From positions 54,974,494-55,038,493 of the forward strand of contig NC_053045.1 in assembly GCF_003473485.1 (NCBI RefSeq): 64,000 nt of DNA. Reading direction: 5' to 3'. Positions 1-53,855 of this stretch are shown here, piece after piece (position 1 is the first letter of the stretch; every line of letters starts with the position of its first letter). Under the pieces are notes generated by a model. It worked only from the letters and a program-made list of their open reading frames with translations, searched no databases and was not told where the DNA came from. Made by a program: the position numbers and the translations under genes. Origin of the DNA: Medicago truncatula. Taxonomy: Eukaryota > Streptophyta > Magnoliopsida > Fabales > Fabaceae.

Positions 1-90
1 TCTCATCTTGGTCTTCCAAATTTCTTGTGTTTTTAGTTCCCCCAAATGTCACTCATTTCGTAACAAAATATTTTTCCTTTGACAACAACC

Positions 91-2358
91 ATGGTTTTTC
101 CTGACAATATTCCAACCTCTAAGATGTCACCGCCGCAATTTGCTACATCAAACAACGATATCGTTGAAGTGAGACCTCGATTTCCAATGAAAAATGAAAA
201 CTTTGAACAACATTCAACATTGTATCAACCCCATTCCCTCAAAAGGGCAAGAATTTCTGATAACAATCGTTCCAATGCATTGATATGCCTTCCTCCAAAG
301 ATGGTTCTGCCTCCATCAAACAGAGCAACCCACATTTTCTACAAGACTCGAATCTGTACTAAGTTCAGGTTTGGTACTTGTAGAAACGGTAAAGATTGCA
401 ACTTTGCTCATGGGGTTGAAGAACTAAGACAGCCACCAGGAAATTGGCTGGAGCTAGTTAGTCCTTGCAACGACGAACAGAAGCAGCTGAGAAATTGGGA
501 GGAAGATCAAAAATTCATTCACAAGATGAAGCTATGCAGGATGTATTCCAATGGTGAGAAATGTTTCTTTGGTAGTAAGTGTAATTTTCGTCATGAGGAT
601 CCTGCTAAGTCTAGGGATCATTCTTGGAAGTCAGGAGAGTGTTCTTCTATAAGCATTGGGACTATTGGTTCTTCAAAATCATTTGGGGATGGCATTAGGG
701 CTGTGAACAAGCCAGCTAGGGGCACTTATTGGAAGAATAATATGTGTTTCCGTTGGCAGCATCAAGGGAGCTGTCCCTTTGGGGAGGACTGTCACTTTTC
801 TCATGGAGAAGCAGGTAATAATAACTCATCTTTGTGTTGATTTCCCTTTTCCCTTTTTTGATTATTGGTCTTGGTTTTATCAAACATAATTCTGTTTTAC
901 TGTTTTTTGTTTTGTTCAATCATAGAAAATATGTTTTCTGATTTTCTTGTTATATGATGTACAAATTATAGTGGTTGAATGTATGTTATTTTCATTGCTG
1001 CGTATTTTGTTTTGTTATTTTGTTCATACAATAAATGCTGCTTCAGTTTAAAACAGTGTTGTCAAATATCAGCGTTCAAATGGCAGATTTGTAGCAAGCG
1101 CCATGGCCAATTTGTGAAGGATGGCGACGCCATGGTGTTTTATGGTGGCTTTAAATTGCACATTTGGTTTTCCACCATCCATCATCGTTAACACTGGTTT
1201 AAAATTAATTTACCACTTGTCTGTATGATTAGTGATTACTTTATCTGTGTTCAAATTTCTGTGGTAGCAGAACATTGATATAGGAAATTTTGACAGCTGC
1301 TATGTTTATATGACGGATTTCAGTTGGTCATCGTAATCCACCATCTGCTACTGATAACACTCCTTTTTCTAATGTTTACATATCAGTGTTGTTAAATGGC
1401 AGTGCCAAGGTAGAATAGTGTGGCAGATTTTTGACATCCGCTATAAGCAATTTGTAAATGGATGTCTGCCACAGCGTCACCATAGGCCACAATGGTGTGT
1501 TTATATGTTGTATTTTTGGCCTTTCATTATATTTCACCATCCTCCATGGACAATACCGTCACTGTGTTACATATAACTTGAATGAAGTTCTGTATTTTCC
1601 TGTCAACCCCATTAGGAATTTCTATTTGATTGAAATGTCTAGATTTCATAAATTAAAATAGTTAATCATCTCAATTTTATAATGGATGGTTGAAAGTTTG
1701 TGTTTGTTACTTGACTGAAATTTTAATAGTTTGGAGTAATCTTCTGTTAAGCATGGGTTCTCTTCGTAACCTTTCAGGGGCCGTACTCCATACTCGTACC
1801 AAATATTCGTTAGGTCCTCGTGGTTACACAAGTAGGTACCAAAATTGCTTTTCAGATATAAAAAAAAGTTGGATAGTACTCTACTTTGGTATGTGTCGAT
1901 GGATACTCTACTTTTCATATATGGTTAACGCAGCTGCAGTGTTAGAGACTAAAAAACCTTAACGTCTCTGCAACATTTGTGGTCACTGTCCTTTATATAT
2001 ATATATTGGGTGTGATTACTTGTATTTACATATTGTGAACAAAGAATTCAAGATGATTGTAACAATTTAAACTGTTTGGTTTCCATGTATCGTATTCTGA
2101 CTCATTCAAGCTGCAGTTGCAATAGCAAATTCAACAAAAGCTATCAATCCAACTTCACGAAAAGCCTTAACAGGTTCTGGCAATGATGCATATGCACCTA
2201 CCACCTTCCCTGCAAGACTTGTGGCAAAGGAAGAGGAGCAGGCTAAGAAGATGCATTTACTTTGGTTGAAATTAAACAAGATCAATCGTGTTTATGGTGA
2301 TTGGATTGATGATTCACTTCTTGTTCTTCCCAACCTGCCAAGTGCAGTGGAGAACTGA
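91..2358 (+). CDS. CCCH zinc-finger protein, tandem copy 1 (C3H39/C3H12-like)
   Basis: Two exons: 91-814 and 2111-2358, joined in phase 1, about 323 residues. The start is the ATG at 91, because the other three copies also begin at the matching Met (MxFPDDIPT). Three CCCH fingers are visible: residues 89-107 (C-x7-C-x5-C-x3-H), 149-168 and 219-238 (both C-x8-C-x5-C-x3-H). Such fingers usually bind RNA, sometimes DNA; the closest family I recall is Arabidopsis C3H39/C3H12, whose targets are not given by sequence. The donor after GAAGCAG is clear. The last exon is unusual: the first 40 or so bases seen in copies 2-4 are missing, so the acceptor is a weak TTCAAG at 2110. The usual stop after GDWIDD has become TCA, adding about 15 residues to a TGA at 2356. 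The frame is open throughout, so the gene may be functional, but exon 2 is inferred from its paralogs. Confidence 0.8.
1054..1600. repeat. Degenerate MITE-like repeat in the CCCH copy 1 intron
   Basis: Repeated short blocks of the type TGTTGTCAAAT / TGTTGTTAAAT with GGCAGATTTG and GCCATGG lie in the intron. Similar, diverged blocks occupy the equivalent intron position in the other three CCCH genes (10335-10600, 27740-28075, 36375-36715). This suggests an insertion older than the gene duplications. Family uncertain. Confidence 0.45.
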
Positions 2359-2784: not shown

Positions 2785-3120
2785 TTGTGCTTCCAAAGTT
2801 GGTGCTGGATGCAATGTTCTTGATTCTGAGTTGTGGAGATTTTTTCATGGTCTAAAAATCGCTTGGAGTAAAGGCTTTAGAGTATGTATTCTGATTCCCA
2901 AACTAAGGGATGGTCGTTGACCGTCTCATGCTTCTTACATCCTTGTTTTCAAGATTCACTGCATTTATGGAGGAGAAGGTAATGATCAATGGTTTCATGT
3001 TCTTAGTAAGTAATACTAATCAAATAGTGCATATTTTGTTGAAGTTAATTTATATAGAGGTTTTTAGTTTCATGGGGGCTTAGTACCTTCTATTCACCAA
3101 AAAACAAAGAGACATGTACT
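2785..3120 (+). mobile_element. LINE 3' end remnant (RNase H-like domain plus 3' UTR)
   Basis: Translation gives LDSELWRFFHGLKIAWSKGF, which resembles the RNase H (RVT_3) domain of plant L1-type LINEs. It is followed by a typical 3' tail with GGGGGCTTAGTACC and CACCAAAAAACAAA. The remnant is broken. A related copy at 23225-23455 shares not only the LINE tail but also the DNA after it, so this insertion probably predates the duplication of the CCCH units. Confidence 0.65.
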
Positions 3121-3459
3121 AGACATGTTGCCTTGTGATACATCGTGGATAACTAAATTGTATATTAGACTCTAGATTAAAAAAACTCTTCAAAATTTAG
3201 AAGTGAATTAAGAAGGTAAGTTTAAAATTTTATCTTGTTAAATACAAAAATTTCATTTTTGATATTTGAAGTTGAAGACCGAAAATCAAAAGCGTTTCTG
3301 GTTATATTATATAAAGCTTGAGACTAAACTCATCTACGGCAACTTCAATTTGAAGCTCTAAAGTTCCCCTCTAACGAGTTTCATGATTTTTCCTGTCGGG
3401 ATTAAACTCCAAATAAGTCATTTACAGTTGGATGCACTCTCAAGACGGAGATTTTGAAC

Positions 3460-3840: not shown

Positions 3841-3866
3841 CTTTCTAATTTTTATAAGAAAAACTA

Positions 3867-5862
3867 CGAGTGAATAGGTATTTTGGTCCTTAAATTTGTA
3901 TACATCGGTTAATTTTATCTCTCAATTTTTCGAAATAGCAAACACGTCCTTAAATTTTATAAATGTCAATCAATTTAGTCCCTTCATCAAGTCTTGCCGT
4001 TAACAATGCTGATATGTCACGTTAAGCGCTGACGTGGAGTTCCAAGTCAGCTTCCACGTGTACAGGGACGAATTTGATTGAACAATTTTTTGATGTTTTT
4101 TTTATTTTTTTTAAAAATGAAAGTAATTATAAATTGTTACACTATCAAATCGATCCTTGAATTATTCATTAAAAATCAAGTTGGTCCTAAATTATGTCAC
4201 TCACTATCAAATCGATCTATGAATTATTTATTTTATTTATCAATTTGATCCTTGATACTATCAAATAAATGTTAAAAATTAAAGAATATGAAAAATGTGT
4301 ATGGAATATAAATGTTAAAAACCAAAAGAATGTGTTTAATTGTTATTATAATAATATAGTGAAGAAATGCTTATGTACATAAATGAGTCATCTAAATCCC
4401 AAAAATATTATAAACAAGTTATATTGCTCTTACATGAGAGCATTCTCTGAATGTCCCATTTAAAAATCAGTCTCTAATATTTTATAAAAGTGTTATGTCG
4501 GTTCTCCTACTTAGTTTATGACAAACCAACAAAACCATCGTAGTTTTAAATCTATATGAATGAATAAAATTTGAGCACACATCAACACATCAATGGACAA
4601 CTATAAAAAGAATATATATACCTATGTATGTTGGCCTGTCCATTGGTAAAATCTGTCGTTGATTGCCACATTGTGTGCTTTCTAGGTTGAGGATTAGTCT
4701 CCCTAAAGAAAAGAGATTGTCTTGCAACCTGCAAAACACAAAATATCATCGATAAATCATTGAACATCAGAAAATTACCCATGCATAATTGCACGTGTGT
4801 TTTACATGTTGAAGAACCATGGAAGTATTTTAGAGGCAAAGTAATATTTTTCCATTAAGTCACCTTCATATTTCACTTCGTATTTTAATAAAGACAACGT
4901 CAACATAAGTTAAATTCATTGAAAAGTATAAATTTCTCAAAAATACAAAATCACATGCAGAATCTTGAATGAACATACCATGAACCGATTTTTAAAAGTG
5001 TAGTTAAGAAATTTGAAGCCTGTAACTTTTCGACAAAAGTCTAATTCTTCCTTTTCACTTCAGAGTTTAAATTAGCGGTATTTGCATTAACTGAATTTCT
5101 TTGAAAAGCTTCGTTTGTATCAAATCTAAAAACGAAGGGCCCTTTGTGAGACTTGAACTGAGAGGGCTAGGCTCATCAAGTTTATTACTTAGTAAAGATA
5201 TATCAACACTCCGCTGCTAATTAAACAATACGTAAAAAAAACATGAACAATAAGTAAAGGAAGTCATAAACAAAAGTGAATATTAAGCAAAATAAATTCT
5301 ACCCAGACATATCAAAACCAAATTTTACGACTTTAGAATCAATTTTGACTCCTCAAAGAATTAAACAATAAGTTTAATTGTTATTTATTAGGAGGTGTTG
5401 AAACAATAATGTTTAACAATTATTCCTCACTTGTTCCTTGGGGATTCTTCACATTCGTTTAGTATTTAGGATTTATTTGACAGTGCTGAGATCAGTTTGA
5501 TAGATAAGATAAATAATTCATTGATCGATTTGACAGTGAGTGACATATTTCAATGACCAACTTGATTTTTAATGAATAATTCAATGATCGATTTGACAGT
5601 GAAATAATTTGTAGTGACTTTTATTTATAAAAAAAATTCAAAAAAAAAAAATTTAAATTCGTCCTTGTACACATGGAAGTTGACTTGGAACTCTAACTCA
5701 ACGCTTAACGTGACATGTCAACACTGTTAACGATTAGATTTGACAGAAAAACTAAATTGATTGACATTTATAAAATTCAATGACCTATTTGCTATTTTGA
5801 AAAATTAAAGGATGAAATTGAGCTGTGCATATAAATTTGAGGACCAAAATAGCTGATCACTC
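3867..5862. mobile_element. Non-autonomous Mutator-like element with long TIRs (Pack-MULE candidate)
   Basis: The left arm (about 3867-4271) and right arm (about 5470-5862) are inverted copies of each other with scattered differences, roughly 400 bp each. The outer ends read CGAGTGA on both strands. Flanks are GAAAAACTA (3858-3866) and GAATAACTA (5863-5871), a 9-bp target duplication with one mismatch, the size expected for Mutator-like elements. I see no transposase. The interior holds two minus-strand host-like exon fragments, listed separately. Confidence 0.8.
4622..5100 (-). pseudogene. Captured host gene exons inside the MULE
   Basis: On the minus strand, an exon-like block ends at 4979 with coding LQASNFLTTLLKIGSW and a donor GTATGT. 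Further on, a block at 4728-4622 has a clean acceptor (TTTTGCAG), coding RETNPQPRKHTMWQSTTDF, and a donor after CATAG. The order and wording resemble a conserved plant nuclear protein family that I recall as ASG1/At2g24100-like; that identification is from memory and should be treated as tentative. The upstream part needs a one-base shift to read ELDFVEKLQ. The phases of the two blocks do not join, so an exon between them is missing. This is a fragment, not a working gene. Confidence 0.55.
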
Positions 5863-6189
5863 GAATAACTATTCTAGGCATTGATCTCTATTTCAAGATC
5901 GCCGGTATCCAAGAGTATGATCTCTATTCTAGTCAGTTGTACGTGTTGGAACCTGTGTGAATCAACAAAGATATGATATTATTTGTCATTTACATCTGTG
6001 ATATATCGGGGGCTTGGTTTTCTCATGCATGTAGATATGATATTATTCCCTTTTCTATGATACAGTTGTTAAATTTTAAATTTAATGCTAGAAAGTATGG
6101 TAAGTTATTTACATCCTCCCGAAAAATACGATGAAAGCTTATCATAAAGCATCATGAAGGCATTTTAATGCAATAAGTATAGTAAATTA

Positions 6190-6700
6190 TTTACATCCCA
6201 AGGATTTTGAAAATGATGAGCTTACTAACAAAACATTTGGAACAATATAAGTAATATTGCATAAAGCTATATTACGATGAAGCTGAACATTGTAAGTTTT
6301 ACACTGATGCACGATGAAGGCATTTTTGCCACAAAAACAAACACACGCCATTAATTTAATCCAAAGTTTGAAAAACACCAAAATCAGTGAGGATTTCCTA
6401 TGGCTAACCCAACACAAGCTTAACCAATTTGAAAGGCACGTGAGAAAATAAAAATGTATCCTCACCCATATCTATGACAAGATTTGCTACGGTAATAAAT
6501 ACTGAGTTACATACATGTTGTTTTTTTATCTCAACTGTCGAGCTAAGATCAAACAGCTTAAATTAAAAATTGTAACTTTTTACTTAAAATGATCTCATAC
6601 ATTGATTTAAAATCGAACGGTTGAAATCTGTTACAATGCATAAAATTCAGTTCTAACAAGATGAAGGTATTATTTTGTTTTACGAGCATTGGTAATTTGA
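6190..6700. repeat. Segmentally duplicated upstream region of the CCCH units (copy B)
   Basis: This stretch matches 25020-25610 closely, for example AAAAACACCAAAATCAGTGA and the block GAGAAAATAAAAATGTATCC. A shorter third match lies at 30570-30660. It marks the common upstream part of the CCCH duplication units and contains no convincing gene. Confidence 0.65.
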
Positions 6701-8967: not shown

Positions 8968-9403
8968 TGCCATCATATTTTCTTGACCAAACCCTGAAAA
9001 CAATAACCAAACCTTTGATCATCTCATCCATCGTGTTTTTCTCATTTCTGTCTTTCAAATGTCATCACTGTTTTCTTTCTCTTTTCTTTTCATTGTTTGT
9101 TATTGATTATTTGATTAACATTTCAACTAATTGCATGTCACTCTTTTCAACTTTGATACAACTTTTTGATAATTAGCTCTAATATTTTACTGAGTTTTGT
9201 TTCAATATTTGAGTTCAGTTCATCTGATTGATCAACAATAATTAAATAAAGAAGACTAAAAATTTCAGATCTTAAATCAGTCAGAAATTTCATATCAAAT
9301 TTGCATCAAATTGCATGTCACTATTTGGAAGTTGAACAATAATCAAATAAAAAAGTCTCAAAATTTCACTCAAATCAAAGAAAAAATTTCTTTGACAACA
9401 ACC

Positions 9404-11121
9404 ATGGCTTTTCCAGATGATATTCCAACCTCTAAGATAACACCACCGCAGTTCGCTTCATTGAACAACGATGACTTCAAAAGAGAAGGAACTTCTCATT
9501 CCAATGCATTGATATGCCCTCCTTCTGATGCATTGATATGCCCTCCTCCAAGGATGACCCTTCCTCAATCAAACAGATCAGACCACATTTTCTACAAAAC
9601 ACGGATTTGTACTAAGTTCATATTTGGTGCTTGTAGAAACGGAACAAATTGCAACTTTGCTCATGGGGCTGAAGAGATAAGGCAACCACCTCCAAATTCG
9701 CAGAAGCTAGTTGGTCCGTGCAACGAAGATAAAAAAATCATAAACAAGATGAAACTGTGCAAGAAGTATTGCAATGGGGAGAAATGTCCCTATGGAGATA
9801 AGTGTAAATTCCTTCATGAAGATCCTGCACAATTTAGGGGCACTTATCGGAAGACTAAGCTGTGTCTCAAGTGGAAGGATACGGGATATTGTTCCTTTGG
9901 AAAGAATTGTCACTTTGCTCATGGTGAAGAAGGTAACAATAACTCATTTTGATTATTGGTTTTGGTTTTATCATATAATTCTACTGTTTTATATTGTTCA
10001 ATCATATAAAATATGTTTTTTTTTAATTTTCTAGATGCTGTGTAGAATGTCATTTTATGTGATATGATGTGCAAATTACAGCGATTAATTAAATGATTTG
10101 AATGTGTGTCATTTTGTGGTTGCGTTGTCTATTATGTTTCATGTTTGATTTGACAGAGCAAGTTTTGAATGGAAAATGATTCCATCCTTGTTTATAGGCA
10201 GAGCAAGTTCTGAATGAGCAATTGTTATATTGTTTATACAACAAATGCCGCTTCAGTTTTGAAATAATGGGCCACATTCCTGTATGATTAATGATCACAT
10301 TATCTCCTTGTTATCAAATTTCTTCCATAATTAAGCCGTGGCATGGTGGACTTTGTGCTAGTTGGCATATGCTACTGTGACTATTATACGATGTGGCATG
10401 GCGGACATTGTGTTGTTAATTGCGGTTCGCGGAAAAATATGCTAGTTCAAATTCCGCTCTGCAATAGTGCTTTAGCCGCTATTTCACAATATTTTGCACT
10501 AAATGACTTTTCGCGGGGCATTAGCGAGTTGTTCAAATCCCGCTCTGCAATAGCTCCAATGCAGCCGCTATTTAACAACACTTGCACAACACTTGAATGA
10601 AATTATGAATTTTCCCGTCAACCCCATTATCCGAGTCATCAATAATTTTGAGGTGCATTGCTCATTTGCAAAGTTTTAAATTGCGACCATGCCGCGATCC
10701 TTAATACCGCGGTCAAATAAGGTTAATGCAGCTGCATTTGTGATGATGAAGACATAAGACATCTGTACGTCTCAGCCACAGTTGTGGTCCTAGACCTTAT
10801 ATTTAAAAAAATCTTGTTCGCTTGTGTGCGAGTGTATGATAACTTATATTTGCATATTGTGAGCAAAATTACAAGATGATTATAACAATTGCAACTTTTT
10901 GGTTTCCATGTATATTGTTCTGACTCCTGAAGTATTGGTTGTCTTGCAAATCAGAGTTACAAGTTCCTGGCGGAGCCATTGAAGCTGAAGCTGCAGTTGC
11001 CATTGAAGCTGATGCTGCAATTACCATAGCAAAGGAAGAGGAGCAGGCAAAGAAGAAACGTATACTTGGGTTGAAATTCAGCCAGATCAATCGTATTTAC
11101 GGTGATTGGATTGACGGTTGA
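9404..11121 (+). CDS. CCCH zinc-finger protein, tandem copy 2
   Basis: Exons 9404-9932 and 10955-11121 join in phase 1 to give about 231 residues, the shortest copy. The ATG follows GACAACAACC, as in copy 1. Three complete CCCH fingers remain (TRICTKFIFGAC..., MKLCKKYCNGEKC..., TKLCLKWKDTGYC...). Against copies 1 and 4 it lacks the N-terminal segment of about 37 residues ending in KRARI, and against copy 3 it lacks about 30 residues of linker between fingers 2 and 3. It also has a short internal duplication around ALICPP. The last exon ends in GDWIDG. Acceptor (CAAATCAG) and donor (AAG/GTAAC) are canonical. Probably a functional RNA-binding paralog; no target can be read from sequence. Confidence 0.83.
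10335..10600. repeat. MITE-like repeat in the CCCH copy 2 intron
   Basis: Blocks such as GTGGCATGGTGGAC / GTGGCATGGCGGAC and TCCGCTCTGCAATAG / CCCGCTCTGCAATAG repeat within this stretch. They match the same intron location in the other CCCH genes. There is no coding content. Confidence 0.45.
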
Positions 11122-23224: not shown

Positions 23225-23455
23225 TTAGGGGTGTCTACTCAGTTATTCAAAAGTTGGTGCTGCACGCAAATGTTCTAGATTCTGAGTTGTGGAGAATTTT
23301 TCATGGCCTACAAATTATTATTTGGGGTAGAGGCTTCTTACGCTCTTGTTTTCAAATGACTTGTTAGCTGATGATATTGTAGTTGGCTTTTTGTTGAGGT
23401 TTTTAATTCTATGGGGCTTTAGCCCCTTTTATTCATCAAAAATAAACAGACAATA
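23225..23455 (+). mobile_element. LINE 3' end remnant (partner of 2785-3120)
   Basis: Encodes LDSELWRIFHGLQIIIWGRG, the same RNase H-like piece as at 2785, followed by a LINE-type tail with GGGGCTTTAGCCCC. Similarity to copy 1 continues past the tail to about 23600, which supports segmental duplication rather than two insertions. Confidence 0.65.
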
Positions 23456-23879
23456 CTAGACATGTAGAAATGTGATACAGCGTGGATAAATAAATTGTGT
23501 TTTGTTAATAGTTAGATTACAAGAGCTTCTCAATTGAGTATTAGACTTTAGACTAAAAATAGCCCTCCAAAATTTATAGGAAAATGCTATCATGTGTTCT
23601 AAGAAGTTTAACATGAAAATTTTATCTTAAAAATTATATATTCATTACATTGAAATTTTAAAAATTGACTTTTGTTTATTAAACCCAATAATTGTTCCCT
23701 TTTTTCTTCTTAACATGACCCAAATTTATAAATGATGTAAGAACTTATGTTTAGAATTTAATCTAGGTACATGAAAAAATATTTAATTTTCGATATTTGG
23801 CGATTGAAGATAAGTGTTATATTATGATAAATCTTTGTAAGTTGATTTTGGATTCACATTAGAAGCTAGGATTTCTGGC

Positions 23880-24480
23880 TTTTGGTAGAATCGAGTTTGG
23901 GAGACATAATCGATTGTTGAAGAAAAAACCAAACATGCTTGCAAGAGACAAGAATCATGTCTACGGGCCAAAACGCTATGTTTGAGGTGCCGAAACGCGT
24001 TGAATTATCTTGCCCCTCTTTCACTGAGAAGTTTAGTGGGTCGCTTAATGAATTATCTTGCCCCTCTTTCCCTTCATGTTGATTCGCCCGGTCATTTGTT
24101 GGCGCATTTAGCAAATTGCCCAAAGCTGGATCAGTTCTTTGTTCTTTTGTCCTCTTTGAACTTTTTTTATCTTTCAACTTACAAATCAAATGGAAATAGG
24201 TCAAAGTAACTACAATTATGTCTAAACCCTAACTATCAAATATTTAAAATAAATCGGAGAAATTTGAAAAGTTTTCTTTCTAAACAAGTTAATATGTTCA
24301 ATGAAATATATTGAATTTTCCGTTAAATATGGCACTTACCATAGACCCAATTTATGTCTCTACGTGACGTGCATGGTCAATGTTTGCATGGCGACAAACA
24401 CGTAAGTTATTTTATGACACATGCAATCTCGTTGATCATTACTCTCCATAATTATATCTCATATAATTAAACAATTTGCA
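23880..24480. repeat. Segmental repeat shared with 29950-30500
   Basis: Blocks such as ACAAATCAAATGGAAATAG and GATCATTACTCTCCATAATT occur in the same order at 30180-30480. This is part of the upstream region of CCCH units C and D. No gene supported. Confidence 0.6.
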
Positions 24481-24602
24481 ACATTTAATGTTACCTTTTA
24501 TCGGAGATACGAGAATCATATGACCTTCCTCGTCAACATCTGACAATGGTCTTACCGATTAATTACATATTTTAATGCAAGAAGTATAGTAAATTATTTA
24601 TG

Positions 24603-25030
24603 CGAGCTTCTACGGTGCAATCAGGAAACTGACTTTTTTGAAAAAGTTAATTTTGATTTTAATATTTGATTCATTTTTAAATTGTTGATTAGTGATTAAT
24701 GATCAATAGTAATTCATCTAGTAATGCTTGTAACATCTTGGATTTACAGGTACTATTTTATCGTTGGCATCTTTAACATGCAAACCGATTTGATGATATT
24801 ATGTGATAGTCTAAGTGTTACGTTTTGTGGGGTGTTACACTTGAAACAAGGTAGGATAAAATTAGATTAAGTGTAGTTTTGTTAATCTGATGAATTAACG
24901 ATAGTATGGGGACTGAACTTTTGATGCCGCTGTACAAATAGTGGGGTATTACTCACTACAATTTTGATGTTATAGTATTAACTTCATCAGAAAAGTTATT
25001 TTCTTGACTTCAGAATTTTCCATTATTTAT
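24603..25030. repeat. Dispersed repeat, copy 2 (partner 20562-20915)
   Basis: Starts TCTACGGTGCAATCAGG and follows the same block order as copy 1, with an extra segment near 24890-24950. Confidence 0.6.
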
Positions 25031-25034
25031 AAAG

Positions 25035-25610
25035 CATTTGAAACAACATTAGTAATATTACATAGAGCGATTACTATCAAGTTGCACACTGTAACTTTTA
25101 CACAGATACACAATGAAGACATTTTTGCCACAAAAACAAACAGGCCACTATATCATAATAGCTTATCTTAAGTTTGAAAAACACCAAAATCAGTGAGGAT
25201 TGCTTGTGGCTAACCCAACACAAGCACGACCAATTTAAAAAGCATGTAAGAAAATAAAAATGTATCCTCACCCATATCTATGACAAGATTTGCTACAGTA
25301 ATCAATACTAAATTACATGTAGTTTTTAATCTCAACCGTCAATCTAAGATCAGACATTTTAAATTAAAAACTGTGATTTTTTAGTTAAAATGATCTCATA
25401 CGTTGATTTAAAGTCGACGGTTGAGATCCGTTACAATACAGAAAATCCAATTCTAACAAGATGAATGCATTTTTTTTTACAGCAAATATATTCGGCTCCA
25501 GCCACACAAGAAGTGCCGGCTGGGCGCAATCAAGAAGCATACAACAATAGCAAAATAGCAGCCAGGTTCAACGAACAAGACGATTGTATTGTTTATGAGT
25601 AATAGTTAAT
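25035..25610. repeat. Segmentally duplicated upstream region of the CCCH units (copy C)
   Basis: Matches 6190-6700. About 120 bp near 25480-25600 (around GCCGGCTGGGCGCAATC) are absent from copy B and so are an insertion or a loss; I do not recognise this piece. Confidence 0.6.
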
Positions 25611-26294: not shown

Positions 26295-26718
26295 GCTTGT
26301 CTCATTTATCGACCAAACCCTGAAAACAATAACCAAACCTTTGATCATCCCATCCATCGTGTTTTTCTCCCAAAATTATCATCTTGGTCTTTCAGATGTC
26401 ATCACTGTTTTCTTTTCATTGTTATTGATTATTTGATTAACATTTCAACTAATTGCATGCAACTATTATCAACTTTTTGATTCAGCTCTAAAATTTTACT
26501 ATGTTTTGTTTCAATTTTTTAGTTCAGTTCATCTGATTGATCAACAATAATTAGATCAAGAAGACTAAAAAATTCAGATCTTATATCTGTCAGAAATTTC
26601 AGATCAAATTTGCATCCAACTGCATGTCACTACTTGGAACTTGAACGATAATCAAATCAAAAAGTCTCAAAATTTCACAGAACTTTATCAAAAAGAAACA
26701 TTCCTTTGGCAACAAACC

Positions 26719-28942
26719 ATGGCTTTTCCAGATGATATTCCAACCTCTAAGATGTCCCCACCGCAATTCGCTTCATTGAGCAACAATGACTTCAAAAGAG
26801 AAGGAACTTCTCCTTCCAATGCATTGATATGTCCTCCTCCAAGGATGACCCTGCCTCAATCAAACAAATCAGACCACATTTTCTACAAAACACGAATTTG
26901 TACTAAGTTCAGATTTGGTACTTGTAGAAACGGACAAAATTGCAACTTTGCTCATGGAGCTGAAGAGTTAAGGCAACCACCACCACATTGGCAGAAGTTA
27001 GTTGGTCTGCGTAGCGAAGGTCGGATGCAGCTGGGAAATCATGCTAAAGATAAAAAAATCATACAAACAATGAAACTGTGCAAGAATTATTGCAATGGGG
27101 AGGAATGTCCATATGGAGATAACTGTATATTCCTTCATGAAGATCCTGCACAGTTTAGGGATGATTCCTTGAAATTGAGAGAGTGCTCCGCAATAACCAT
27201 TGAAACTAATAATTTGGAAGGCAGCAGGGCTTTGAACAAGCAAGCAAGGAGCACTTATCGGAAGACTAAGCTGTGTCGCAATTGGAAGCATACAGGATAT
27301 TGTTCCTTTGGAATGAACTGTCTCTTTGCTCATGGTGAAGAAGGTAACAATAACTCATTTTGCTTATTGGTTTTGGTTTTATCATATAATTCTATTGCTT
27401 TATTTTGTTTAATTATATAAAATATGTTTTTTTATTTATTTTTTAGATGTTGTTCAGAATGTCATTTTCTGTGATATAATGTGCAAATGGAAGAACGTGC
27501 GTTGAGTTTTGTGGGGAAGTCGCAACTCGGCTTCAAATTAGAGTGTTTGATTAATGGTTTATGTGTGTCATTTTGTTGTTTGTATTGTGCATGATGTTTC
27601 ATGTTTGGTTTGACATAAACTTGCTCCTCCTACTTGTTGTCCCTTTGCCTTGTCTTGCATAAATGTACCTTCCTAAGGTTCTGAATGATTCCATCATTGT
27701 TTAATGATCACATTATCTCCTTGTTATCAAATTTCTGCCATAAATGGGCTGTGGCATGGCGGACTTTGTGCTAGTGGCCATAGTCTATACCATGACTATT
27801 ATACCCGGCTTGTTTCCACCATATGCCGCAGCTCCATGTTTATAAGCCATATTTTTCGCCAGCTGCGATAATCCGCCTTTTGCTTATGATAACTTTGCTC
27901 TAGCTGAGGTTTACATTGTGTTGTTAATTGCAGTTTGCGGAATAATGTGGTTAGTTCCAAATATGTTCTGTAATAGTGCTATAGCCGCTATTTCACAATA
28001 TTTTGTACTAAATAAAGTTTGGTGGGGGCAATAGTGATTTGTTCAAATCCCGCTATTTAACAACACTTACATAATACTTGAATGAAATTCTGAATTTTTC
28101 CGTCAACCACATTGTCAGGAATTTTTATATGATTTTTTTTTTTTTGAGAGAAGGAATTTTTATATGATAGAAATGTCTAAGTTTTCATAAATTAAAATAG
28201 CTAATCCACTCATTCTAATGGATCATTACTATTGTATTGTGTTGGAAGTTAAAAGAAAAAAATCCACTGTTTTACATTTGTTAAGATACTAGAATTTGTT
28301 GTAGTTTAGAGTAATTTGTGATTCTTAATAACCAGCTATAAGCTATTGTATTATGTTCATCTTTTCCAAGCTTGTTTCTTCTTAAAGTTTCTGTTGATAA
28401 TTGCCTATTAATTTGATGTCTGACTCAACAATAATTTTGAGGTACATTGTTCATTTGCAAAGTTTTAAATTGTGACCATGCCGCGATCCTTAATATTGGG
28501 GTCAAATATGGTTAATGCAGCTGCATTTGTGTGTGAATGTATGATAACTTATATTTGCATCTGTACGTCTCAGCCACAGTCATGGTCGCAGACCTTATAT
28601 TTAAAAAAATCTTGTTCGCTTGTGTGTAAAATATATGATAACTTATATTTGCATATTGTGAGCAAAAAGTACAAGATGATTATAACAAATGAAACTGTTT
28701 GGTTTCCATGTATATTGTTCTGACTCCTGAAGTATTGGTTGTCTTGCAAATCAGAGTTACAAGTTCCTGGTGGAGCCATTCAAGCTGAAGCTGCAGTTAC
28801 CATAGAAAATTCAACAAACGCTGCCACCTCCCCTGCAAGTCTACTTGTGGAAAAGGAAGAAGAGCATGTTAGGAAGAAACGTATACTTGGGTTGAAATTC
28901 AGCCAGATCAATCGTATTTACGGTGATTGGATTGATGATTGA
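26719..28942 (+). CDS. CCCH zinc-finger protein, tandem copy 3
   Basis: Exons 26719-27343 and 28755-28942 join in phase 1 for about 270 residues. The ATG chosen is the one matching copies 1, 2 and 4 (MAFPDDIPTSKMS); an upstream in-frame extension exists only because the 5' UTR is open. Three fingers are complete: TRICTKFRFGTC..., MKLCKNYCNGEEC..., TKLCRNWKHTGYC.... It shares with copy 2 the missing N-terminal segment but keeps the linker between fingers 2 and 3. The last exon ends in GDWIDD and a normal TGA. It is closest to copy 2 in coding and promoter sequence, so these two probably separated last. The intron carries a MITE-like repeat and a tiny poly(T) insertion. Confidence 0.85.
27740..28075. 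repeat. MITE-like repeat in the CCCH copy 3 intron
   Basis: Same type of blocks as in the other CCCH introns (GTGGCATGGCGGAC, GCTATTTCACAATATTTTG). Confidence 0.45.
28118..28168. mobile_element. Tail-only micro-retroposon with 16-bp duplication
   Basis: GGAATTTTTATATGAT occurs at 28118-28133 and 28153-28168. Between the copies lie only 19 bp: twelve T and GAGAGAA. The same intron position in copies 1 and 4 is an uninterrupted single site. Confidence 0.65.
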
Positions 28943-34710: not shown

Positions 34711-35202
34711 AAAAACAAACATACACGCTCAAACAATAACTTTAAACCTAAAACAACTGTGGGTTATCAGCGGACAAAAAAAAAAACACAACAACTGCGG
34801 GGTTACTTTGACACGGTCACTTTGTTTGATTTGATAGCGACTCCCTAGGGTTTTGACTTGGTGGTCCAACTTAAAACAACCTCAAACCTTGCAACTGATA
34901 GTGGTCTCATTATATTCCTCTCTTTTCTCTCTACTTAAAACCGACCAGCGATCAACCTGAATAAAATAATCAAGGTTTTCTCATCTAGGTCTTCTAAATT
35001 TCTTATTAGAATCTCTTTATCCGCCTCAAAATTAGGTATATCTTTCAACAGCATAGTTTTCTTTCAGGTTGAAAACTATTTTGAACTTATTGAATCAGTT
35101 CTAAAATTTCTCTGATTGTTGATCTGATTAATCAACATTAATCAAATCAAAAAAGACTCCAACTTTCACTTGATTTGATCTAAATCGTTTTCCTTTACAA
35201 CC

Positions 35203-38191
35203 ATGAATTTTCCAGACGATATTCCAACCTGTAGGATGTCACCACCGCAGTTTGCTTCATCCAACAACGATATCATTGAAGTGAGGCCTCAAATCCCAAT
35301 GCAAAACGATCACTTTGAGCCACATTCCTTCAAGAGGGCAAGAATTGCTGATAACAATCCCCCTCCTAGTGGATTGATGTGCCCTCCTTCAAGGATGATT
35401 CAGCCTCCACCAAACCGAGGAACAAGCAGCATTTTTTTCAAGACCCGAATCTGCACTAAGTTCAGGTTTGGTACTTGTAGAAACGGTGAAAATTGCAACT
35501 ACGCTCACGGGGCTGATGAGATAAGGCAGCCACCGCGGAATTGGCAGGAGCTGGTTGATCCTCGCAACGAGGAACGACATCAGGTGGAGACAAGGCAGCA
35601 ACCACCAAATTGGGATGAAGATCAAAAAATCATTCACAAGATGAAGCTGTGTAAGAAGTATTACATTGGTGAGGAATGTCCTTATGGTGATAAGTGTAGC
35701 TTTCTTCATGAGGATCCTGCTAGGTTTAGGGATGCTTCTTGGAAAACAAGAGAGTGTTCTGCAATAAGCGTTGGAAATATTGGTTCTCCAAAGTCTTTTG
35801 GGTATGGTTCTAACAATTTGGAAGGCATTAGGGCTGTGAACAAGCCAGCAAGGAGTGCTTATTGGAAGACTAAGCTGTGTCAATGGCAGCATACAGGGAG
35901 CTGTCCCTTTGGGGAGACCTGTGACTTTGCTCATGGAGAAGCAGGTAATGTTAACTCATCTGTTTGTTAATTTCCATTCTCCCTATTTTGATTAATGGTT
36001 TTGATTTTAACTTTATCATATAATTCTACTGTTTTTGTGTTCTTCTATGATGATTATGTAGAAGGTTATTTTCTCTGATGTATGATGTACAAATTACTGT
36101 GTTTGAATGTGCCACTTTCGTTGTTGTGTATGATATTTTCATGGTTGGTTTGACATAAACTTGTCCCTCCTATTTGTTGTCCCTAGCCTTGTCTTCGCAG
36201 AAAGTGCCTTCCTATAGTAGTTAATCAAGTTAAACCAAAAATGATTTCACTCTTGTTTATAGGCAAAGCAGGTTCTGAATGGGCATTTGGTATTTTGATC
36301 ATAATCAAGATATTCTTTCAGTTTAGAAGTAATGGAAAACTTGTTTGTACGATCAGTGGTTACTTTATCTTAGTGTTGTCAAATTCATGGCCGATTTTGT
36401 TCCAGCCACGATAGGCTGCAATGGCTATTATATCTGGCTTGTTTCCACCATAGGCTGCAATACCATGTTTATATACCAGATTTTTGGCTAGCTGCTGTAA
36501 TCCACCTTCCACTTATGATAATGCTGCCCCATTGGAGGTATACACAGTGTTGTCAATTGTGGATCACAGAAAATTGTGCTTTGTTCAAATTTCCCTATGC
36601 AACAGTGTTATAGCTGCTATTTCATATTATGTTGTCCTAAAAAGCATATCATTGGACAAAAGCAATTTTTTCAAATTCCTATATGCAATAGCCCCGCTAT
36701 AGTCGCTATTTGACATCACTTACATAATACTTGAATGAAATTCTGCTTTTTCCCATCAACCCCATTGTCAGGAATTTTTATTTGCTAGAGATGACTAGAT
36801 TTTCATAAATTTAAATATTCAATCATCTCCATATTCTAGTGGATGATTACTATTGTATGGTGTCAAAAATTAAAATTATTTTCCACAGCTTTACATTTGT
36901 TGATTGACTGGAACTTTTAGATGTTTGGAATAATTTGTGAAAGATTTCCTTCTTGTAATCAATCACAGCTTTACATTTGTTGATTGACTGGAACTTTAAG
37001 ATGTTATTAGGAATAACTTGTGAAAGATTTCCTTCTTGTGATCGACTATGCAGCATGGTAGTACAAATTGAAATCATACTCTTACTGTACTTGTGGTAAC
37101 GTACCAAGTATGTACCAAAATTACTTTTGAATTATAAACGCTAGATACTCCACTAGGATAGTTTTACGATATGTACACGTGGTACAATAAATAAATAAAA
37201 ATATGTTTGTCGTTTAGTAAATAAAAAAATTTATTTTCTTATTCAGTTTTGATATGTGATCTAGTGAACTAAGAAAGATGTTTCTTTGTATATTTTATGT
37301 TATATGTCATGCTTATTTTTGGTTTCTATCTTCTATACAAGCTTGTCCTTCTATAAATCTGTCATGTTCTATCTTCTCGTACCTGATACTCGTACTTGGT
37401 ACCCTATAACCTTGTCCATGCAACATAGGTGTCCAGTAATTCCCACACCGAAGTGACTGATTTTATCTTTCAATCATATCATACAATTGAAATTTGAGTA
37501 ATTGCTTTTGCTTGCGATTCGGAACAATCAACTATTATATTTTGTTCATCTTTCCAATCCTGTTTCGTCTTTTGGTTTCTGCTAATGGTTGCCTGTAAAT
37601 TTAATGTCCGACTCATGAAAAAATTGGAGGTACATTCCTCATTTGCGAGGTTTTATATTGCAGCAATGTCGCAATCCTTAATTTTACAGTCAAACATTTT
37701 TAATGCAGCTGGAGTTGCGACTTGCGATGACAAAGATGTCAAAAACCTTAACGTCTTAGCCACAGTTGTGGTCGTATACCTTTTTTTTTTAAAATAAAAT
37801 CTTGCTTATTTGTGTGTGATAATTTTATTTTTTTGCATATTTGGAACAACAATTACAATAGATAAGAAAGGTGATTATAACAATTGAAGCTGTTTGGTTT
37901 CCATGTATTTTGTTTTGGATGATTAAGTATTGGTGGTCTTGCAAATCAGAGTTACAAGCTCCTGGTATGGGCATTGAAGCTGAAGCTGCAGTTGCCATAG
38001 TAAACTCAACAAAATCTATCATTCCAACTTCACCAAAAGCCTCAACAGGTATTGCCAATGATTCTACTACTACCTTCACCGCAAGTCTACTCATGACAAA
38101 GGATGAGGAGCAGGATAAGAAGAAGCACTTACTTAGGTTGAAATTAGGCAAGAAGATCAATGGTATTTATGGTGATTGGATTGATGATTGA
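35203..38191 (+). CDS. CCCH zinc-finger protein, tandem copy 4
   Basis: Exons 35203-35944 and 37950-38191 join in phase 1 for 327 residues, the longest copy and probably closest to the ancestral form. ATG follows TTTACAACC. Fingers: residues 84-102 (C-x7-C-x5-C-x3-H), 150-169 (C-x8-C-x5-C-x3-H) and 226-244; the third is C-x7-C-x5-C-x3-H, one residue shorter than in the other copies (LCQWQHTGSC). A basic KRARI patch precedes finger 1. The C-terminal exon contains an Ala/Glu-rich helix, a Ser/Thr-rich stretch, a Lys-rich segment (DKKKHLLRLKLGKK) and the family end motif GDWIDD. RNA binding is the likely role; cellular location and targets are unknown. It stands next to NUDT19, as the relic block at 9404-18755 also does. 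Confidence 0.87.
36375..36715. repeat. MITE-like repeat in the CCCH copy 4 intron
   Basis: Same family as in the other CCCH introns (GTTTCCACCATAGGCTGCAA, TATAGCTGCTATTTCATA). Confidence 0.45.
36884..37047. repeat. Tandem duplication of about 80 bp in the copy 4 intron
   Basis: CACAGCTTTACATTTGTTGA starts at 36884 and again at 36964. Both units continue to GATTTCCTTCTTGT with few differences. The other CCCH introns show no second unit. Confidence 0.85.
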
Positions 38192-50474: not shown

Positions 50475-50976
50475 AACCACTTACAATGGTGTATTTAATG
50501 AGCCATTCAACACCAATTTTGCCTCCAATGGTGTGTTTAAAGTGTGTTGAATGAGGGAAGAGAAGAGAGGGAAGGTGAACCGATTCAACACCATTTAACT
50601 CTGCCAGGCTGGACACGTGGCGACGCGAAATTGGCCCAAAACGGGCGCGTGCGTTACACGCGCAGACAAGGCGCGTGGGCTGTCAGACGTGCGGAGAGAG
50701 AATGGTTTTTTGGATAGATAATGACACGTGGCGCGTTTTAATTGGTTGTCCGGATTCTTATCATTTTCATAATTTAACCTCAATTATTTCGTTGTAAATT
50801 AATTTTTTTAAAAAAAAAAATTATACCAAAATTCATGATTTTTTTTTCTCTATAAATAGAGACTTGGTTCATTTGATTTGGACACAGAAAAAAAAACCAA
50901 GTTTTTCACTATCTTCTTCTTATTATTATCTTTCTATTAGCAAACTAAGTGAAGTTTTAATCTTATTTTTAGTGAA

Positions 50977-52086
50977 ATGGATCCCAATAATAACCATTTC
51001 AACAACCAAAATTATTCTAATTACCCATTTAACTACGAAAATCCCAACAATTATCCAAATCCAAATCAATTTTTCAACCAACGTCCTCAAAACATACCTA
51101 ATTTTGGTTTTCCACCAAATTTCAACCAGTCATCCTCTGTTCCAAAATTTCATCCATATTATGGATCTATGATGAGATATCCATCTCAAACACCCCCGTT
51201 TAATGGTTATATGCCAATGGGGAATGAAAATTTTCCTAGTGTTGATGCAACCCAATATCCTGAATTTTCAACACAAATAACTCCTGGTGGCATGGCAGTT
51301 GCTGATGAAGTCACTCCAGAAGATTCAACTCCTAAGAGCAAGAGAAGTAAGGAACCAACATGGAACACTCAACAAAATTTGGTTCTAATTAGTGCATGGA
51401 TTAAATATGGAACAAGTAGTGTTGTCGGGAGAAACCAGAGAGGAGAAACATATTGGGGTAAAATTGCTGAGTATTGTAATGAGTATTGCTCATTCGATTC
51501 TCCCCGCGATCTAGTTGCCTGCCGAAACTGTTTTAATTATATGAGCAAAATAATAAATAAATGGATTGGTGCTTATGAAAGCGCTAAGCGTATGCAAGGA
51601 AGCGGTTGGTCGGAAGATGATGTTTTGACAAAAGCGCAGGAATTATTTGCAGGTGGGAAGAATATTCAATTTACTTTGAATGAAGAATGGCACGCTCTCC
51701 GTAATCAACCACGTTATGGTAGTCTGATGGGAGGAAATGTTGGGTCAGGAAGTAGTGGATCTAGGAGATCTCACGAGGACTCTGTAGGATCTAGTGCTCG
51801 TCCAATGGGTAGGGAGGCAGCTAAAAAAAAAGGTAAAATGAAAAGCAAGGGCGAGACATTGGAGAAGGTGGAAAAGGAATGGGTTCAATTCAAAGAATTA
51901 AAAGAGCAAGAGATTGAACAATTGAAAGAGTTAACTTTGGTGAAACAACAGAAAAACAAGTTGCTGCAAGAAAAGACTCAAGCTAAAAAAATGAAAATGT
52001 ATCTAAAGTTAAGGGACGAAGAGCATGTCGATGACCGGAAGAAGGAGCTGTTGGAGAAGTTGGAGCGTGAGCTGTTTGAAAATTAA
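50977..52086 (+). CDS. Harbinger ORF1, Myb/SANT (trihelix-like) DNA-binding protein
   Basis: An intact 369-codon frame. An Asn/Pro/Phe-rich N-terminus (to about residue 110) precedes a basic KSKRSKEP and a Myb/SANT-like domain at about 125-215 (TWNTQQNLVLISAWIKYG, YWGKIAEYCNEY, MSKIINKWIGAYE, GWSEDDVLTKAQELF). A basic linker and a Lys/Glu-rich coiled coil follow at about 300-369. In PIF/Pong elements this protein binds transposon ends and works with the transposase in the nucleus. A TATA-like CTATAAATAG lies at 50851, so the unit has its own promoter. Confidence 0.85.
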   Translation: MDPNNNHFNNQNYSNYPFNYENPNNYPNPNQFFNQRPQNIPNFGFPPNFNQSSSVPKFHPYYGSMMRYPSQTPPFNGYMPMGNENFPSVDATQYPEFSTQITPGGMAVADEVTPEDSTPKSKRSKEPTWNTQQNLVLISAWIKYGTSSVVGRNQRGETYWGKIAEYCNEYCSFDSPRDLVACRNCFNYMSKIINKWIGAYESAKRMQGSGWSEDDVLTKAQELFAGGKNIQFTLNEEWHALRNQPRYGSLMGGNVGSGSSGSRRSHEDSVGSSARPMGREAAKKKGKMKSKGETLEKVEKEWVQFKELKEQEIEQLKELTLVKQQKNKLLQEKTQAKKMKMYLKLRDEEHVDDRKKELLEKLERELFEN

Positions 52087-52120: not shown

Positions 52121-52366
52121 TTATCAGTGTTGTCTAGTCCCGACTGTTTGCTTTAATATTTGTCAGTGTTGTCTAGTCCGTAGTGTTTGCTTTAATAATT
52201 ATCAGAGTTTTATCTAGTCCTCACTGTTTGCTTTAATAATTATCAGAGTTTTGTCTAGTCCTCACTATTTGCTTTAATAATTATCAGAGTGTTGTCTAGT
52301 CCCCAATGTTTACTTTAATAATTGTCAGTGTTGTCTAGTCCCCGTGACTTATTTGCTTTAATAATT
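52121..52366. repeat. Minisatellite, about 41-bp unit, six copies
   Basis: The unit core is TCAG-GTTGTCTAGTCC followed by TGTTTGCTTTAATAATTA. Six imperfect copies run from the end of ORF1 towards ORF2. Confidence 0.85.
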
Positions 52367-52456
52367 ATGTCCACTGTGTGCCCATTATTTCACCTACTAT
52401 AACTTATTTCAAATCCGTCAGTGTCCACCACACAATGTACTTATATATAGGGACTC

Positions 52457-52562
52457 ATATCTACTTTCAATTTCACAAGTCTCATTAAAATCTACTTCCA
52501 ATTTCACAAATCTCATTCATATCTACTTTCAATTTCACAAATCTCATTCATATCTTCTTCCA
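52457..52562. repeat. Short tandem array, about 32-bp unit, four copies
   Basis: The unit resembles ATATCTACTTTCAATTTCAC followed by AAATCTCATTC; it forms the leader just before the transposase start. Confidence 0.8.
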
Positions 52563-52574
52563 AAAAACCTATCA

Positions 52575-53855
52575 ATGGATCCTTTTGATTTGGAAGCCTA
52601 CTTCCAAAAACGTGATGCTGAAGACACGTATATGGTCAACCGATTTATTCAGCGTCGAAAACAAATAGAGGAAGGTAGTGGATCTCGTAGTAGAAAATAT
52701 TTAAATAGAGATCATGCAGGGGCAAACCAAAGACTCATTGCCGACTACTTTGCCAATGAGCCTACATATGACGATGCAATGTTTCGTCGTCGGTACCGGA
52801 TGCAAAAACATGTCTTCCTTCGAATCGTTGGAGACCTTTCAAGTAGTGATAACTACTTCACCCAGCGAGTTGATGCCGCCAACAAAGAAGGTATATCACC
52901 GTTAGCAAAATGTACCACAGCAATGCGAATGTTAGCATATGGTGTGGCAGCAGATGCGGTAGATGAATACATCAAAATAGGAGGTACTACAGCATTGGAG
53001 TGCTTACGTAGATTCTGTAAAGGAATCATACGACTGTATGAGCAAGTGTATCTGAGAGCACCAACCCAAGATGACCTTCAAAGAATACTACATGTTAGTG
53101 AAATGCGGGGGTTCCCAGGGATGATCGGGAGTATTGACTGCATGCACTGGGAGTGGAAAAATTGTCCTAAAGCATGGGAAGGTCAATTCACCAGGGGGGA
53201 TAAGGGAACCACCACAGTTATTCTTGAAGCAGTTGCCTCTCATGATCTATGGATCTGGCATGCCTTTTTTGGATGTCCGGGAACGTTGAACGATATAAAC
53301 GTTCTAGACCGGTCACCAGTGTTCGATGATGTGGAACAGGGAAAGACTCCAAGGGTGAATTACTTTGTGAATCAACGTCCCTATAATATGACATACTATC
53401 TAGCTGATGGTATCTACCCTTCTTACCCAACTTTCGTCAAATCAATTAGGCTTCCTTAAAGTGAACCCGATAAGTTATTTGCAAAACATCAAGAGAGCTG
53501 TCGGAAGGACATCGAACGTGCTTTTGGAGTGCTTCAAGCTCGATTTAAAATCATCCGTGAACCAGCTCGCTTGTGGGACATAGCTGATTTGGGTATAATC
53601 ATGAGGTCATGCATCATATTACATAATATGATTGTTGAGGATGAACGAGATACATATGCTCAACGTTGGACCGATTTTGAGCAATCTGAGGGAAGTGGAT
53701 CTAGTACACAGCAACCATACTCGACCGAGGTGTTACCCACTTTTGCAAATCATGTGCGTGCTAGATCCGAGTTGCGTGATCCAAATGTTCATCACGAATT
53801 GTAAGCAGATCTAGTGAAGCACATATGGACAAAGTTTGGAATGTTTCATGATTGA
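52575..53855 (+). pseudogene. Harbinger transposase (DDE, HARBI1-like) with two in-frame stops
   Basis: From ATG 52575 the frame reads a plant PIF/Harbinger transposase: N-terminal region with RRRYRMQKHVFLRIV, then MIGSIDCMHWEWKNCP (D188), GTLNDINVLDRSPVF (D240), YYLADGIYPSYPTF (D278), KDIERAFGVLQARF (E314) and the C-terminal RSCIILHNMIVEDERD. The DDE acidic residues are all present. One TAA (53457-53459) separates IRLP from SEPDKL, where relatives have Gln as I recall. A second TAA (53802-53804) follows HHEL, and the frame then continues through ADLVKHIWTKFG to TGA at 53855. Both stops look like single C-to-T changes of a CAA codon. There are otherwise no frame changes, so inactivation is recent. 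Confidence 0.88.

Follow-up and report, generated by a model that had tools for sequence, protein, structure and literature searches.

According to the excerpt of PMC4858842, Mutator-like elements (MULEs) usually have terminal inverted repeats (TIRs) of 100-500 bp and target duplications of 8-11 bp, and Pack-MULEs are the carriers of gene fragments; in the same excerpt, rice Pack-MULEs are said to favour G+C-rich sequence. The excerpt of PMC3310237 accepts duplications of 9-11 bp with at most 2 mismatches and describes PM-ZIBP, a Pack-MULE family of tomato with 13 copies bearing tandem TIRs and one bearing a single pair. Pack-TYPE elements also occur in other superfamilies, such as Pack-CACTA and others (PMC8903248, in excerpt). 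In the excerpt of PMC4234490 the term Pack-MULE was met in the reference list only, and no study centred on the Pack-MULEs of Medicago was found among the titles listed by the literature searches.

Here we analysed a 64,000-bp stretch of Medicago truncatula DNA, hereafter the window. Positions 3868-5862 hold a 1995-bp element, with G3868 as the first base and C5862 as the last, which by structure is an ordinary, well-supported Pack-MULE, representing gene capture of a well-known kind. Similar to the Pack-MULEs of rice, tomato and Arabidopsis, it has long TIRs, a 9-10-bp duplication and no room for a transposase, and it carries inside it a fragment of a host gene, in this case including introns, the host copies of which persist in the genome. 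It differs from them in the imperfect duplication and in that no autonomous partner was found. In addition, the captured segment is AT-rich (30% G+C), whereas a G+C-rich preference is given for rice in the excerpted text. PM-ZIBP, as excerpted, also has one captured gene fragment in more than one copy; however, the present case consists of one complete element plus one single-ended locus, with single TIRs. The likeness to the Pack-TYPE transposons, as far as the excerpt describes them, lies in gene fragments placed between inverted repeats. The Pack-MULE interpretation proposed in the first-pass annotation is supported by this structure, with the Mutator class inferred from the ends and the duplication length. 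The features are given below, L009 and L010 being two copies of the donor gene.

3858-3867, no strand: left target site duplication GAAAAACTAC, 8/10 match to 5863-5872
3868-4296, plus strand: left TIR, starting GAGTGAATAGGTATTTTGGTCC, 349/432 columns identical to the right TIR
4297-4343, no strand: short spacer from the left TIR to the captured segment, outside the L009 and L010 matches
4344-5360, minus strand: captured host gene segment (intron, exon a, intron, exon b stub, intron, exon c, intron), 818/932 aligned bases identical to L009 3777-4875
4622-4728, minus strand: exon c, open, with splice signals and RETNPQPRKHTMWQSTTDF, PF24818 at 2.8e-15; 67 bp of exon c are absent from L009
4827-4834, minus strand: net 156-bp loss of donor sequence (the remainder of exon b together with its splice donor, plus the start of the next intron), seen as 77- and 79-bp gaps against L009 with 7 bases between them
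About 4835-4882, minus strand: exon b stub, acceptor AAAA where L009 and L010 read GCAG, placed by alignment and motif
4975-5187 (5' limit approximate), minus strand: exon a, FVEKLQASNF, interrupted by a TAG in frame and shifted by 2 bp relative to the L009 frame
5361-5443, no strand: spacer from the captured segment to the right TIR, shared by L011 (C13) together with the junction, as a continuous match
5444-5862, minus strand: right TIR, pairing with the left TIR
5863-5872, no strand: right target site duplication GAATAACTAT, 8/10 match to the left

The long inverted ends described earlier are present. Alignment of 3868-4296 against 5862-5444 yields 349 identical columns out of 432 with 16 gap positions, and the pairing score of 258 compares with no more than 37 across 100 mononucleotide shuffles; the 432 aligned columns fall within the length usual for MULE TIRs. 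The left end lies at G3868, the start base in most sibling termini. Given this end, the left 9-mer of the first-pass annotation is one base off: the 9-mers GAAAAACTA and GAATAACTA (3858-3866 and 5863-5871) indeed match with the one mismatch claimed, but the left copy does not abut the element. The register abutting both ends gives a 10-bp duplication with 2 mismatches, GAAAAACTAC and GAATAACTAT, which is within the 8-11 bp and the two mismatches accepted for MULEs. A flank match of 8/10 was seen in 250 of 200,000 random place pairs in the window, and 117 of 200,000 reached 8/9 in one or the other register. The target duplication is imperfect, and this is counted against the Pack-MULE explanation.

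No empty insertion site could be aligned. The genome search with the left flank matched its own place only, and a 113-bp piece of this flank recurs elsewhere in the window at 80%. A candidate paralogous empty site at window 23388-25476, which is similar to portions of the flanks, was rejected because the stretch between the flank parts is unaligned at the insertion point. Window 3049-3161 and 6162-6676 recur there, about 20 kb away, with 80-97% identity in pieces, probably through duplication of a zinc-finger array. Four CCCH zinc-finger frames on the plus strand (window 64-840, 9260-9952, 26569-27420 and 35179-35970) probably form this tandem array, and the element is placed between the first and the second.

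The interior 4344-5360 is 88% identical on the minus strand to part of a gene for a TRF2/HOY1 PH-like domain protein (PF24818). Genes of this kind form a tandem cluster at C4:62.46-62.48 Mb, 7.5 Mb from the element on the same chromosome; we take the family to be the ASG1-like genes of Arabidopsis, a name to which no evidential weight is given. The alignment to L009 (C4:62474776-62475874) has 818 identical bases out of 932, and that to L010 (C4:62462 kb) runs in pieces at 77-83% identity. In L010 (C4:62462198-62464339) the exons a to d succeed one another with stop-free matches, and this is the host gene that had been predicted to hold both segments in the proposed order, its middle exon lying between the two captured blocks. 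Two sequences exceed the PF24818 cut-off: exon b of L009 by itself, with 1.3e-22, and the exon c frame of the element, with 2.8e-15. Exon a of L009 scores 16.4 bits, below the cut-off of 24, and the 34-residue exon a piece of the element matched no Pfam profile; exon a is too brief or too degraded for a profile comparison, and this is counted against the Pack-MULE explanation. The interior is homologous to a non-transposon host gene of the PF24818 cluster, against the alternative that the segments belong to a widespread transposase family. The TIRs and the captured segment fill 1865 of the 1995 bases of the element, and its longest stop-to-stop frame (90 aa) matches PF24818 only in a Pfam scan of that frame, so that no transposase lies inside.

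Exon a, the exon b stub and exon c follow one another in the segment on the minus strand. The two minus-strand blocks with splice signals reported before correspond to exon a, with FVEKLQASNF, and exon c, with RETNPQPRKHTMWQSTTDF. The donor GT of exon a, at 4974-4973, was located by aligning the donor copies; exon c (4728-4622) has the acceptor TTTTGCAG and the donor AG/GTATAT. By alignment, the captured piece extends from within the intron preceding exon a to within the one following exon c, and it therefore lacks both the start and the end of the gene; L010 and L009 continue downstream with gene matches at exon d, which are absent from the element. We infer from the retained introns that the segment was copied from DNA. 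The third cluster copy, L042, was rejected as the donor because it lacks the stretch holding exons b and c, making the L009 lineage a better donor fit. In a tree of the shared part, the element groups with L009, L011 and L012 (96/99) in no resolved order, and a single donor copy is thus not fixed.

The internal exon suggested to be lost has really been damaged; however, the loss is not complete. About 48 bp of the 5' end of exon b is left, with its acceptor mutated from the GCAG of L009 and L010 to AAAA, and the loss that begins inside exon b and reaches into the next intron amounts to a net 156 bp. With the 2-bp frameshift and the TAG of exon a in addition, the captured reading frame is broken. 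The nearest cluster copy has decayed as well: L009 lacks 67 bp of exon c, the gap lying between short AGG repeats, and the element and L010 keep these bases. Therefore, capture would have taken place before the loss in L009, or from a sister of L009. The locus is a clean, donor-traced case of gene capture with reciprocal decay, most of exon b being gone from the element and part of exon c from the nearest donor copy.

Identity to L009, with approximate limits, was compared part by part. Exon a (178/205) is no closer to L009 than the preceding intron (148/164) and the following one (93/104), and it shows no sign of constraint against change. The introns before and after exon c have 91/98 and 223/264 identical bases. 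The exon c portion kept by both the element and L009 is the highest of the parts compared (45/47), over a short length. This value, together with the open frame and intact splice signals of exon c, would suit captured exons that encode a new chimeric protein. That such a protein exists is barely credible, as exon a carries the stop and frameshift at an identity no greater than that of its introns, exon b has lost its acceptor, and the 90-aa longest frame is unexceptional against 300 mononucleotide shuffles (mean 75, 95th percentile 99). Captured fragments of this type can be misannotated as genes.

The element's ends belong to a repeat family. A genome search with the whole element returned at least 112 matches (40 of 433 candidates scored), and one with the left end alone at least 42 (40 of 371 candidates scored), two of which are the element's own ends, leaving at least 40 further matches. 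Comparison of 21 sequences, namely the window and 20 loci, showed a terminus in 16. An opposite-end search was run on 22 termini entered by hand; ten had an opposite end, making 7 two-ended elements with that of the window included, and for the other 12 none was found under the settings used. In six of the 7 the target duplication is 9-10 bp long and has 2 mismatches or fewer; the seventh, with two ends at L021 1812-3783, shows no target duplication, and this is counted against the Pack-MULE explanation. Two duplications are perfect. One belongs to the 4526-bp member at L025 2209-6734 (C5; 10 bp), a locus that also has a weak LRR-like frame below the cut-off. The other belongs to a distant relative, the 882-bp inverted-repeat element at L010 1189-2070 (9 bp), upstream of the donor-cluster gene. 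The member at L027 1671-3431 has a 10-bp duplication with one mismatch and, in its interior, a weak RVT_3 (RNase H-like) match below the curated cut-off. L028 2328-2912 has two facing ends that the script left unpaired, with AAAAAAATAT seen by eye on both sides; it may be an eighth two-ended member and was left out of the count.

No transposase was found near the family ends when 40 TIR places were compared with 148 MULE-domain places, each list being the scored share of a larger set (371 and 923 candidates, respectively); the closest listed pair is 113 kb apart. A frame of 139 residues in L025 at first resembled a transposase end; the frame itself gave no Pfam match. Its relatives in L063 and L064 are 87% identical over 128 and 107 of the 139 residues, and L064 is a FAR1/MULE-domain protein by Pfam. 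Neither has a TIR match in the sequence searched, which for L064 covers one flank, as its frame reaches the sequence edge. The L025 frame may be a captured fragment or a decayed transposase.

Since no transposase-bearing partner was found, the Mutator class is taken from structure, and the same absence, among the places compared, of a transposase with the element's ends would allow an element of another TIR superfamily, of Pack-TYPE but not a MULE. The target duplications of Mariner, PIF, CACTA or hAT elements are 2-3 bp or 8 bp. These lengths do not fit the 9-10 bp seen here, a difference that favours Mutator over all four of them. Long TIRs and 9-10-bp duplications fit the MULE descriptions excerpted from PMC3310237 and PMC4858842, and an origin in another superfamily is very unlikely.

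The captured segment was also found in other loci. In L011 (C13), the right TIR, the spacer 5361-5443 and the part with exon a are joined as in the element, at an unrelated site. After the exon a part follows a 264-bp insert at L011 4707-4970, bounded by inverted repeats; the gene match resumes briefly at 4971-5024 and then diverges. A second end was not found in L011, where a weak match at E 0.021 has no duplication. As the transposon-gene junction is shared, the element probably moved after capture, and at least this one further locus would descend from the same capture. Transposition with the captured segment is indicated by the duplication in the window and by this junction in L011, which is single-ended. 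L012 (C3) has just the part with exon a, which shares 87% identity with the element across 394 bases, and no TIR match was found within 7 kb at E 1e-4; this and the missing second end of L011 are counted against the capture explanation.

A relic of gene duplication flanked by two separate insertions of one TIR family, with neither capture nor carriage, would leave a similar arrangement, and TIR-like matches are common in the genome, with 12 of the 22 termini lacking a found partner. However, the two ends in the window are in facing orientation, align with one another along 432 columns and have a duplication at their outer borders, and the gene-to-TIR junction recurs in L011 at another place, which together make two separate insertions highly improbable.

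Therefore, we propose that the locus is very probably a non-autonomous Mutator-like Pack-MULE that captured its gene segment from the C4 cluster, was mobilised in trans, inserted and later decayed. The element would have copied a genomic segment, introns included, from a TRF2/HOY1 PH-like gene at C4:62.46-62.48 Mb, the direction being presumably from gene to element, and would have carried it between its long TIRs. A transposase supplied from elsewhere, presumably of Mutator type, would have mobilised it. Insertion at window 3868-5862 would have given the 9-10-bp target duplication, and the segment has since decayed by the frameshift, the stop, the acceptor loss and the net 156-bp deletion.

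A regulatory role was also considered, in which TIR-driven transcripts over the captured exons might yield antisense or small RNAs acting on the donor cluster. Exact 21-mers of the segment match L009 at 70 of 997 positions and L010 at 14 of 997, introns counted, as compared to none in one shuffle, and TIR-TIR pairing is predicted to be strong (-434.8, where 20 shuffles average -92.1). The 21-mer matches and the pairing allow small RNAs without demonstrating them. However, L010, in which exons a-d are open, has few of the exact matches, and the predicted hairpin is made of TIR rather than captured sequence; such regulation would be unlikely. It is slightly more doubtful that the element is a fossil still acting, keeping the part of exon c gone from the nearest cluster copy, with small RNAs from TIR read-through that might dampen the source cluster.

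Another transposon-related feature was noted in the window. The frame at 50953-52086 gave no Pfam match at E 0.01, and the adjoining 52365-53804 encodes a plant transposon protein (PF04827), presumably Harbinger-like, the frame of which is interrupted by a single stop codon at 53457-53459.
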